Positions 1,108 to 25,912 of a stretch of DNA of 40,106 nucleotides are shown here, in pieces; position 1 is the first letter of the stretch; each line of letters opens with the position of its first letter. The position numbers were made by a program, and so were the translations under genes. The notes under the pieces were generated by a model. The model had not been told where the DNA came from. It worked only from the letters and a program-made list of their open reading frames with translations, and ran no database searches. The stretch lies in NCBI GenBank assembly GCA_913052575.1, contig CAJXFK010000010.1, positions 1-40,106 of the forward strand, read 5' to 3'. The DNA comes from an uncultured Planctomycetaceae bacterium (lineage in GTDB: Bacteria > Planctomycetota > Planctomycetia > Pirellulales > UBA1268).

Positions 1108-4100
1108 CTACCGTGAGGATGCCGCTAAGACATCAGTTCCGGCTTTTCCTATTGCTTTTTCTGCATCTCGCATACCGAAGCACCAGAACAAGGCCGGGTG
1201 TACAAAGAAATCAAGAATAGTCGAACTGATCAGGCCACCAAGAATGACTGTTGCCACTGGATAGAGAATTTCCTTCCCTGGTTCACCTGCAACCAAAACA
1301 AGTGGCACCAACGCGATACCCGCAGTGAGCGTCGTCATCAGCATCGGTGCAACCCGCTCTTTCCCTGCCCGCTCTATCATATCTCGAGTAAAACCTTCTC
1401 CTTCATGTCGAACGAGATGAAGATAATGAGCTATCAGGAGTATTCCGTTCCTCGAAGCAATTCCACAGAGTGATATGAAGCCAACCATACTTGCAATAGT
1501 CAATGACTGGTTTGTGAGTACGAGTGCACCAATAGCTCCAATAGCTGCCATAGGTAATGCCGCAAGTACCTGCAGAGAAAGATTTACAGAGTGAAACAAT
1601 GTATAGAGAAGTACGAACATTCCACCCAGCGACACCAGGCTTAACAAAGCAATCATCCTTGTTGCTTGCCTCTGGCTCTCAAACTGGCCTCCGTATTCAA
1701 GGAAGGACCCCGGGGGCAGTCCGGTCTCAATTAGTTTAAGCCGCTTCTGTATCTCTCGAACCACCCCATCAAGGTCACGCCCGACCGTGTTACATTGAAT
1801 AACGATACGCCGCCTCGCATTTTCTCGGTTAATCGTATTCGGCCCACTACCTTCCCTAATAACAGCAACAGCATCGAGCGGGACTCGCCCACCCGTTGGC
1901 AGATTAATTGACAAGTCCCCCAGCTTTTCAACATCGACTCGATACGGTTCATCCATCCGTACAATAAGATCAAACACACGCTGACGATCAACTATTTGTG
2001 ACACGGTTCTGCCGTACATTGCTGTCTGTATAAACTCATTGACTGTTTCAACCGTAAGGCCATACTGCACAAGTTTTTCTCGATTGATCTGAATCTTGAG
2101 TTGAGGTAGTTCCGTTTGCTGCTCTACTAAAAGATCAGTAACACCGGGCACATCAGCAATTGCCTCTTTTATCTGCTCGGCGTTTTTCCGTAATAAAACA
2201 AGATCGTCTCCATAAAGCTTAATGCCCACCTGTGCTTTTACTCCTGAAAGCATGTGGCTGATGAGGTGTGAGAGAGGCTGTTCAACTGATGCAATAACGC
2301 CTGGGACATTCTCAACCTTTTCTCTGATATCCTGAATTGATTGCTCACGACTGCGGCTCGCAGTCGGATCTAAACACACAAGGATCTCTGATGTATTCAC
2401 TCCTTCCGCGTGCTCGTCCATTTCTGCCCTACCTGTCCGGCGACTAACGTTCAAAACGCCTTCAACTGTTCCAATACGTTCATCAACCATCGCATTGATT
2501 GCATTTGATGTGGTGAGCGATGTTCCTGGGGGCAAAAACACATTGACCTGAACACTACCTTCGTTGAAGGGAGGTAAGAAATCTCTCCCGAGCCGCGCAA
2601 GGGTCACAATACTAGCTACACAACATCCAGCTACCACCACTAAGACAATTGCTGGATACCGAATACTGAAACGATTCGCCCACCCTACTAACGATTGGGA
2701 AACATTAAGAACAAAGCTTTTGCGATATTTTCGAGAACCAGTTGAACCAGGCAACAACCAGTACGACAGAACAGGCGTGACCGTTAAGGAGACGACAAGA
2801 GATGCAAGGATAGAAATAATATAAGCCAAGCCGAGGGGCATAAATAATTTCCCTTCAATTCCCCCGAGTGCAAAGAGTGGAACAAAAACAAGAACGACAA
2901 GAGCTGTACTAAAGACAATAGAACTTCGGACTTCCCGACTTGCTTCATAAACAACACGAAGGATTGGATGCGGTACTGCCCGTTGACTATTTTCACGAAG
3001 GCGTCGAAAAATATTTTCGACATCGACAATCGCATCATCAACAAGTTCACCTACTGCAACAGCTAATCCGCCCAAAGTCATCGTGTTAATCGACATACCA
3101 AGAACCTGAAAGACGATGGCCGTGATCATGATCGATAGGGGTATTGCCGTAAGCGTGATAAATGTCACACGAACATTGAGAAGAAATAAGAACAAAACAA
3201 CAATTACAAGCAAGACACCGTCTCGTAATGCCTCGATTACATTTGAAATACTTAAATCAATAAATGTTTTTTGTTGATAAAGATCTGGGGTGATTCGAAT
3301 ATCAGCCGGGAGAGACTGACTGATACTTTCGATTGCACTAAGGACATCCTCGGTCAAACGACGAGTATCAGCACCTGGTTGCTTTGAAACAACTACAAGA
3401 ACGGCTGGCTTTCCATTGACAGCCGCATCACCTCTTTTTAATTGCGCCCCCTCTACAACTCGAGCCACCTGCCCCAAGACCACCGGGCGGTCCTCCCTTG
3501 CCTTCACTACAACAGCCTTCAAATCATTTACTGTTTTGATTCGGCCTAATGCGCGAACCAGCAGCTCATTCCCGGCTCGCTCGAGATAGCCACCAGTAGC
3601 ATTTGAATTGCTGGCTCGGACGGCCTGCTCAACATCATGAAGTGAGACTCCGTATTGCAACATCAAATCAGGATTAACCAAAACCTGAAACTGTTTGCGA
3701 CCACCACCCATGGTGATAACTTGCGCAACTCCTGGCACGGTCAACAAACGCTGACGAACAACCCAATCTGCGAATGTTCGTAGGTCAATAGGAGCCGTTT
3801 TGCCATGAACACTTTCGATGCCAATATGCATAACCTGCCCCATGATCGAAGAGATCGGCGCAATATGAGGACGCATTCCTTTCGGCAGTCGCTCTTGCGC
3901 TGATCCAATCTTCTCGGCAACAATCTGACGATTGACATAAATATCTGAGCCCCATTCAAATTCAACCCAAATGACAGAAAGACCAATACCTGAGGAACTT
4001 CGTACTGTCTGAACACCGCTCGCCCCGGTTAAAACTGCCTCAAGCGGTACGGTCACAAGCATCTCTACTTCCTCAGGAGCGAGCCCGCTTGCCTCTGTCA

Positions 4101-24149: not shown

Positions 24150-24230
24150 ATGAAAACAATTCTCTCTATGATCACTCGTTACCTTATAAAGATATTTTCT
24201 CCTGATTACTCTGACATTTGGAACAAATAA
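24150..24230 (+). CDS. Possible 26-residue small protein
   Basis: ATG at 24150 preceded by AAAGGG (24136-24141) at 8 bases gives MKTILSMITRYLIKIFSPDYSDIWNK, of which the first half is hydrophobic and basic and could be a membrane peptide. A hairpin ATCCGT/ACGGAT (24242-24264) and a T-run (24280-24286) follow directly, as for a short transcription unit. Alternatively it is the front of a decayed gene, because the same frame continues open across two stops to 24452. Too short for any family assignment. Confidence 0.25.
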   Translation: MKTILSMITRYLIKIFSPDYSDIWNK

Positions 24231-24497
24231 TTTTTTAAGTCATCCGTTTTATTTAAACACGGATATGTACACTTAGATATTTTTTTAAAAACATCCAGTA
24301 AGAGTCTGCCAAAAACTGCATGGTTTGATGCCTTGTAGGCCACATCGCTTGAGCCACCAGAACTGATTATCACGTCTATGGCCACTGGCGAGGCAGCACC
24401 TTCAAATCAAGGGATAAGAAAAGAAGTTGCCCGACAGGGCTCAAATCTTTGAGCTACGGATGTGAAGTCAATCCCAAAGGACTCAGCTGTCATTCAG

Positions 24498-24535
24498 TTG
24501 ATAAACCAACGCTTTTAAAGCGTTGGTGGTATACT
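24498..24535 (+). promoter_or_regulatory. Extended -10 promoter with upstream operator palindrome
   Basis: TGGTATACT (24527-24535) matches the extended -10 pattern TGnTATAAT in five of six hexamer positions. Immediately upstream is a perfect dyad: ACCAACGCTTT (24505-24515), central T, AAAGCGTTGGT (24517-24527). A TTGATA at 24498-24503 is too far (26 bases) to be a standard -35. A palindrome over the -35 position suggests regulator-controlled transcription of the gene at 24636. Confidence 0.5.
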
Positions 24536-24540
24536 CATTC

Positions 24541-24622
24541 TGAGGGTTGCACCTCCCGGAACTGATCCCCGGGAGGCAACGTCCCGAGAGACAACGTCTG
24601 AGCACGCGTCTCAAAGTTCACT
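24541..24622 (+). ncRNA. Structured 5' leader (candidate cis-regulatory RNA)
   Basis: Downstream of the candidate promoter, GTTG-CA-CCTCCCGG (24546-24559) pairs with CCGGGAGG-CAAC (24569-24580) as a 12-bp hairpin with a two-base bulge. AGAC-AAC-GTCT (24590-24600) adds a small hairpin, and GAGAC/GTCTC (24588-24592, 24608-24612) is an alternative larger stem. The structures end about 10 bases before the GGAGG site of the next gene. No known riboswitch family was recognised. Confidence 0.4.
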
Positions 24623-24635
24623 GGAGGAACTGCAG

Positions 24636-25439
24636 ATGAATCCGAAGTCTATGGAAAGACTCTTTGCACGATTCGAAGCATTCAGAGACAAAGATCCCAT
24701 TGGGCTTCTGTACGCAATCTGGAGAAGCGACATTGAGCCACTCTCTCCTGCTGAATTGCCGACAACGTACAAGGCTTTTGAAAATCAACAACCTACGTTT
24801 AGATTCTCCCCCGCCAAAGAACTCAACGGACTCTTGATTATACGGGGAGATGATCCGACTGTGAAACGGCTGATGATGGCAACATGCAAGGCTGCTTCCA
24901 AAGAACTGCACGATGAATTGTGCCGTTGTGGTTTTGAACCTGATGCTGGAATTGTTGAAATCAACTGGCTCTGGGCTTTGATCGAGGCTGCTGGGAAAGG
25001 CTGTTTGGGCTGTGAAGGCTTTGTAGATGGAAAAGCTTTTTATCATTCGAAGATAGCTGACTTAACAGTTGACGAAGCAACGATTCTGGATGACTCGTTG
25101 GGCTGGTCGATGGCTGATTTTGTCCCTCGTAAATTCATGCAGTTTGAAAACATTGTTGAATCATCAATTAGTTTTATTGAATACCTAAAAAAAGAATTGG
25201 AGACACCAACGCCGCATTCTTTGCCCAAAAGACAACAAATAGATGAATTACTTCGAGGCTTGTATGAAAATGACCCGACATTCTGTCTCAAGGAATCATT
25301 AAAAATAATTGCTCAAAGACTCAATCTACAGTCAGAGGACACCGTTTCAGACTGCCCATTCTATGAATTTTATTTGAAAGAACGAAGAGATACATACACA
25401 CTTCAAACGAAGGCCCAACAACAGGCAGCTTCGTCTTGA
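24636..25439 (+). CDS. Hypothetical protein, possible C-terminal DNA-binding domain
   Basis: A 267-residue protein not recognised as a known family. GGAGG (24622-24626) precedes the ATG at 24636 at a good distance. The N-terminal half (DKDPIGLLYAIWRSDIEPLS; FSPAKELNGLLIIRGDD) is mixed alpha/beta; a Cys-containing segment CRCGFEPDAGIVEINWLW and CLGCEG (about 108-135) has a CxC and a CxxC that could bind metal or form disulfides. The C-terminal part KRQQIDELLRGLYENDP and KESLKIIAQRLNLQSEDTVSDC (about 197-245) looks like a winged-helix or HTH-type helix bundle, so a DNA-binding role is possible. No signal peptide. It lies alone on the plus strand next to tRNA-Arg, as accessory genes often do. 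Confidence 0.65.
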   Translation: MNPKSMERLFARFEAFRDKDPIGLLYAIWRSDIEPLSPAELPTTYKAFENQQPTFRFSPAKELNGLLIIRGDDPTVKRLMMATCKAASKELHDELCRCGFEPDAGIVEINWLWALIEAAGKGCLGCEGFVDGKAFYHSKIADLTVDEATILDDSLGWSMADFVPRKFMQFENIVESSISFIEYLKKELETPTPHSLPKRQQIDELLRGLYENDPTFCLKESLKIIAQRLNLQSEDTVSDCPFYEFYLKERRDTYTLQTKAQQQAASS

Positions 25440-25838
25440 CGATAGAAATCAGCAGCCTGCAAAATACACTCGAGCAACTAAAGTGAACCTGCCGAGACTC
25501 TTTGCTCTACTTCGTGACTGGCCGTGAACTGAGAATGCAAGTCTGACAATAACGAAGTGACTTTTGAGCTTCACCAAACCTTTCAATTATTTGCGATCCG
25601 GGGGGGAATGGAGCTGAAACAGAAGAGGGCCTCCGGAGTGTGCCCTAAAAACTTTTATTTATGCAAGCATCCCCGACAGAATTCAAGCATGTACTGTTGC
25701 ATCAAGAATTCACCCGCAAGGGCACACAAAGTGGCAATGAATCCGCTGCACTAGCGTTTGACAGCACTCGTTTCACGGTCCGTGAAAAGAAACAGAATCT
25801 AAAAGAAAACCTTATACACGCTGGCCCACAAAAATCAG
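25440..25838. other. 399-bp interval between the hypothetical gene and tRNA-Arg
   Basis: No convincing gene; the plus-strand frame over 25661-25999 is the familiar artefact of translating through a tRNA. A perfect palindrome TTTCACGG-T-CCGTGAAA lies at 25771-25787, 52 bases beyond the 3' end of tRNA-Arg (minus strand), possibly a terminator or operator. A G-run (GGGGGGG) sits near 25601-25607. Confidence 0.4.
25771..25787. terminator. Palindrome downstream of tRNA-Arg
   Basis: TTTCACGG and CCGTGAAA flank a single T, a perfect 8-bp dyad 3' of the tRNA gene. On the minus strand it is not followed by a U-run, so an operator or a processing hairpin is equally possible. Confidence 0.3.
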
Positions 25839-25912
25839 TACGCCCGACAGGATTCGAACCTGTGACCTGCGGATTAGAAGTCCGCTGCTCTATCCAACTG
25901 AGCTACGGGCGC
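25839..25912 (-). tRNA. tRNA-Arg (anticodon TCT)
   Basis: The minus strand folds as a complete cloverleaf: acceptor GCGCCCG/CGGGCGT with a first-pair G-U, D-arm AGCTCAGTTGGATAGAGC, anticodon arm GCGGACTTCTAATCCGC with TCT at 25876-25878, and T-arm ACAGGTTCGAATCCTGT, discriminator A. It reads AGA codons. CCA is not encoded. It sits between the accessory stretch and the oxoacid dehydrogenase cluster. Confidence 0.95.

Follow-up and report, generated by a model that had tools for sequence, protein, structure and literature searches.

Among sigma-70 promoters of the extended -10 kind, those whose operator lies in the spacer or -35 region form a general bacterial type. Genomic islands are reportedly integrated at the 3' ends of tRNA genes, as Williams is said to have set out in 2002. 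Tycheposons range from 4 to 200 kb and carry a XerD-like tyrosine recombinase, and the Methylophilaceae possess islands with repeated tRNA-Lys ends as well as tycheposons (PMC10872708). A literature search of limited coverage did not find tRNA islands in planctomycetes. In this work, we analyzed a 40,106-nt stretch of DNA (the window) from an uncultured Planctomycetaceae bacterium, in which an orphan gene is preceded by an extended -10 element with an adjoining palindrome and is framed by fragments of tRNA-Arg(TCT). We think it probable, on balance, that positions 24498-24635 hold the promoter and the 5' leader for a transcription unit of one gene, that the DNA tract carrying this unit built up at the tRNA-Arg(TCT) 3' end, and that a dimer on the palindrome modulates initiation. 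The features of the locus are as follows.

24429-24469, minus strand: displaced tRNA-Arg(TCT) 3'-half fragment (fragment A), which forms the left boundary of the inserted unit and lies a short way upstream of the promoter
24498-24504, plus strand: TTGATAA heptamer, invariant in the alignment of three orthologues
24505-24527, unstranded: operator-like palindrome (arms of 11 bp, spacer of 1 nt), its centre at about -26 from the expected start
24527-24535, plus strand: extended -10 element TGGTATACT, conserved in orthologues and the sole such site in the window
24546-24580, plus strand: leader hairpin of 4 + 8 bp with a CA bulge, of which the inner 8-bp stem alone persists in relatives
24568-24582 and 24583-24597, plus strand: 15-bp tandem duplication, present in the window only
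24623-24627, plus strand: GGAGG ribosome-binding site, invariant in orthologues, 8 nt before the ATG at 24636
24636-25439, plus strand: orphan gene of 267 aa, under selection and without a family match, with a helix-turn-helix (HTH)-like three-helix model for C-terminal residues ~196-257
25611-25711, minus strand: degenerate tRNA-Arg terminator and displaced 3'-half fragment (fragment B; tRNA part ~25671-25711)
25838-25912, minus strand: intact tRNA-Arg(TCT), the right edge of the inserted tract

The extended -10 proposed in an earlier, sequence-only reading of this DNA is present and is the sole match to TGNTATA[AC]T in 40 kb when both strands are scanned. It was compared between the window's own genome (G000) and two genomes of the same genus that carry orthologues of the downstream gene (G002 and G003), where the element reads TGTTATAAT and TGTTATACT, respectively. 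The form TG[G/T]TATA[C/A]T is therefore kept in all three orthologues and the hexamer lies 6 nt past the GCGT of the dyad core each time; the kept element and its constant distance from the dyad indicate that the promoter is conserved. The element and the palindrome have one base in common. A consensus scan scored no -35 partner, and TTGATA, considered as a -35, was rejected because it lies 25-26 nt from the -10, which is too far. Judging from sequence and conservation, RNA polymerase would use the extended -10 without a -35, and we infer that transcription starts at about 24541-24543, since promoters of this kind initiate 6-8 nt past the -10. The TGN-TATAAT-like box, the dispensable -35, the dyad over the polymerase site, and the usual Shine-Dalgarno distance are all shared with extended -10 sigma-70 promoters, and the promoter-operator is of an ordinary kind in these respects, although the dyad of the window differs from the usual operators of such promoters in having a single target in the genus. 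A promoter with a putative, operator-like dyad is thus well supported by these comparisons.

The palindrome, ACCAACGCTTT-T-AAAGCGTTGGT, spans 23 nt with 100% complementary arms and is exactly the perfect 11-bp-arm palindrome that had been described. The window contains no second palindrome of such size, for which a first-order Markov model of the window expects 0.05 occurrences; the dyad symmetry therefore exceeds chance expectation, and it overlaps the promoter. The dyad reads ACCAACGCTTTTAAAGCGTTGGT in the window. In G002 it is likewise perfect (CACGCTTTAAAGCGTG), with an A-T pair replaced by C-G in a compensated change and a spacing that differs by 1 nt, whereas in G003 (ACCAACGCTTTTGAGGCGTTGCT) 3 of the 11 right-arm positions are changed and the DNA symmetry is broken. 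The dyad is accordingly perfect in two of three orthologous promoters, with the core kept in G002 and weakened in G003, a comparison of three sequences from MAGs of one genus. The outermost perfect pairing stems from a substitution seen in the window alone, and on this alignment the window lineage acquired its perfect outer pairs recently, while the core of the dyad has been preserved as its flanks drifted. For the proposal of an operator the evidence is mixed: the symmetry is beyond chance and its core is kept in G002, but it has decayed in G003. This decay and the recent outer pairs would also be expected if the palindrome had arisen by chance in a plain constitutive promoter. We regard such an origin as improbable, both from the 0.05 occurrences expected and from the intact core in G002, whose third codon positions in the orphan gene are 70% identical to those of the window. 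A terminator was considered as well and rejected, as a strong T run is absent on both sides of the palindrome.

The palindrome has no further copy in its own genome at up to 3 mismatches. Across 10 genomes of the genus, the core ACGCTTT(N)AAAGCGT occurs solely 5' of the orphan gene, in G000 and G002, and a regulon search with the palindrome recovered no other site in the genus. As the genus contains the dyad at no other place, the regulator would be dedicated to a single target. The position and conservation of the dyad suggest that a dimeric DNA-binding protein most likely occupies the palindrome at about -26, over the -35/spacer region, and that the bound dimer may block or modulate initiation. 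The first candidate for this regulator, speculatively, would be the product of the gene itself, which has an HTH-like C-terminus.

The gene at 24636 had been called unrecognised, and searches with its product indeed gave nothing significant in Pfam, NCBIfam, PHROGs, PADLOC, or, by sequence, the PDB. Identity to the G002 orthologue is 0.92, 0.91, and 0.70 at first, second, and third codon positions, respectively; the first two are far more alike than the third, which indicates a real protein gene under purifying selection. Protein identities to the two orthologues (G002, G003) are 85% and 92%, and the G003 orthologue is divided over two contigs. Relatives of the gene occur in 5 of 10 genomes of the genus, two of which (G001 and G006) carry distant versions with 32-33% identity. 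No homologues were found among the 72 remaining genomes of the family, in a phylum sample of 392, or in phages, plasmids, and IMG/VR, and GTDB contigs returned already known loci only. As far as these searches reach, the gene is a genus-restricted orphan.

AlphaFold gave an unusable model for residues 1-193 (pLDDT below 50) and a confident one for residues ~196-260 (mean pLDDT 79 when modelled alone), so that in the model the last ~65 residues form a three-helix domain resembling a helix-turn-helix. The structures nearest to this domain are nearly all HTH or homeodomain DNA-binding folds (FapR, RccR, YbbH, LexA, Mos1, and homeodomains), with matches that fall below significance (Foldseek E of at least 0.6, VIA Z of at most 5.5); a sub-significant Pfam HTH_18 match (E 0.12) was obtained for a distant homologue only. 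DNA binding by the gene product is therefore a lead provided by the models. A sharper form of our explanation would be autorepression, in which the 267-aa product binds the palindrome of its own promoter through the C-terminal HTH-like domain. The dyad found solely in front of the orphan gene is consistent with this possibility, as are the nearest structures of the domain, modelled at a pLDDT of ~80, and a scan of neighbouring proteins that yielded no other recognisable regulator. However, the fold matches are not significant, the scan for regulators covered part of the genes in the window, and the distant homologues beside tRNA-Phe (in G006 and G001) share the domain while their upstream regions contain no comparable palindrome. 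The operator is thus not a family-wide feature, and autorepression appears possible, if somewhat unlikely. The broader explanation, that some dimeric protein acts at the palindrome, is the one that we retain.

The leader contains the 12-bp bulged hairpin and the GGAGG just as they had been described, with the hairpin paired as GTTG-CA-CCTCCCGG/CCGGGAGG-CAAC. As a whole, however, it is no more structured than expected: its folding energy has a z of -1.16 against dinucleotide shuffles, 22 of 200 shuffles being equal or better, and a Markov control gave z values of -0.8 for the window, -0.3 for G002, and +0.4 for G003. Conservation of the stems in homologues, named beforehand as a test, was mostly not observed. 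The inner 8-bp stem persists with 8, 7, and 8 pairs in the window, G002, and G003 (G-U counted), with one-sided changes (C-G to U-G and U-A to U-G) and no two-sided change among the three sequences; the outer 4-bp extension is lost in both G002 and G003. The further stem that had been counted as a signal, GAGAC/GTCTC, has its left arm inside the 15-bp tandem duplication, and both the duplication and the stem are absent from the G002 and G003 orthologues. The leader has no match in Rfam. A structured riboregulator, whose bulged hairpin and further stems would control access to GGAGG, could draw on the persistence of the inner stem and on a CCTCC arm that could pair with GGAGG, but the folding scores, the unconserved outer and further stems, the empty Rfam search, and the one-sided pair changes make it highly unlikely, and the structured regulatory leader of the sequence-only reading is not upheld. 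A riboswitch or RNA thermometer was rejected because Rfam gave no hit, folding is not in excess, and the stems are unconserved. A leader ORF coupled to the gene was also rejected: an open TTG/GTG frame overlaps the ATG in the window and G003, but this frame is not open in the same way in G002. The ~95-nt leader carries a single GC-rich stem-loop besides an ordinary Shine-Dalgarno sequence and probably does not act as a switch.

The tRNA-Arg fragments that frame the gene were missing from the earlier reading. Fragment A matches the intact tRNA's 3' half over 41 nt without gaps, with a score of 46 where shuffles average 21.9 and reach at most 36. It lies at the same place in G002 and G003, although the G003 match, taken by itself, does not exceed the best shuffle. 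Fragment B, with its terminator attached, aligns to the terminator-tRNA junction of G006 with a score of 33 (shuffles max 16), and likewise in G002 (45) and G003 (34). The unit between fragments A and B measures ~1.2 kb and holds one substantial ORF without a family match, and no recombinase or integrase was found in the tract; it is possible that the integrase for this unit was supplied by other mobile units. In G005, which is uninserted, tRNA-Arg lies ~150 nt past a micro-ORF, at the place of fragment A in the window, with the exact joint blurred by divergence. In G006, the gene and fragment A are missing at tRNA-Arg and the terminator is present. The micro-ORF (24150-24230, plus strand; 26 aa, MKTILSMITRYLIKIFSPDYSDIWNK) has orthologues at the same place in six genomes of the genus, is most variable at third codon positions, has one weak match only outside the genus, and is likely an unannotated small protein.

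The palindrome lies ~36 nt from the end of fragment A, as might be expected if it were a leftover of insertion, such as an arm-type recombinase site, and not an operator. This alternative seems unlikely to us, since three species place it at one fixed distance from the -10, the core is kept amid drifting flanks, and the insert at tRNA-Phe described below carries no comparable palindrome. An operator at the promoter remains our preferred reading.

At tRNA-Arg in G002, an extra tRNA-Arg fragment and 1.6 kb more DNA lie ahead of the tRNA. This 1.6-kb segment (L014:11354-13075), absent from the window, is located between a displaced tRNA-Arg 3' half (37/42 nt identical) and the intact tRNA, and contains an ORF of 81 aa that looks like a zinc ribbon joined to a membrane segment; an integrase was not recognised. 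In the window, the ~126 bp from fragment B to the intact tRNA-Arg (25712-25837) are possibly a further mini-insert of the window lineage.

The distant homologue (32-33% identity) adjoins tRNA-Phe in both G006 and G001. In G006, the homologue is cargo of a 2.5-kb insert (L017:859-3346), which is bounded on its far side by a displaced tRNA-Phe 3' end of 25 nt. G000, G002, and G003 are uninterrupted there: they match G006 up to the end of the tRNA (859), resume at 3347, and overlap over the repeat. By these alignments, the segment is a clean 2.5-kb insertion at the 3' end of tRNA-Phe. Members of the gene family have the same orientation at both tRNA genes, with the 5' end towards the displaced fragment, and on this evidence the gene family is cargo at two tRNA genes, tRNA-Arg and tRNA-Phe. 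The gene would accordingly be accessory cargo, whose homologue arrived by a separate insertion at tRNA-Phe. By eye, the 2.5-kb insert also holds an endonuclease/exonuclease/phosphatase-like gene. A run of N lies inside the tRNA-Phe gene of G001 (L018:3841-4145), and a similar run lies inside tRNA-Arg in L052; these may be masked stretches, or else scaffold gaps that were placed inside repeated tRNA sequence.

Like islands at tRNA 3' ends, these inserts have displaced tRNA 3' fragments on their distal side and an intact tRNA on the other, and in the tRNA-Phe case relatives have exact empty sites. Unlike such islands, the units are no larger than ~1.2 and 2.5 kb and contain no recognised integrase. 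Of the described cases considered here, the Methylophilaceae islands with repeated tRNA-Lys ends and the tycheposons (PMC10872708) come closest, but the present units are far smaller. As in tycheposons and additive tRNA islands, cargo resides at tRNA genes of aquatic bacteria and repeated tRNA ends mark successive insertions (PMC10872708). In contrast to tycheposons, the unit of the window is ~1.2 kb and a XerD-like recombinase was not found (PMC10872708).

At this locus of an uncultured planctomycete, an orphan cargo gene has a regulatory region that is self-contained and conserved, and the family of the gene is placed in tRNA-anchored inserts of very small size at two distinct tRNA genes. 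A bolder proposal is that the gene founds a new family of cargo proteins that bind DNA and regulate themselves, and that tiny inserts without a recombinase, located at the 3' ends of tRNA-Arg and tRNA-Phe, have spread the family among planctomycetes of one genus, with a single-target operator for every copy; we consider this decidedly unlikely. If the product does bind the palindrome, however, this would explain both the uniqueness of the site and how a newly inserted gene checks its own expression.
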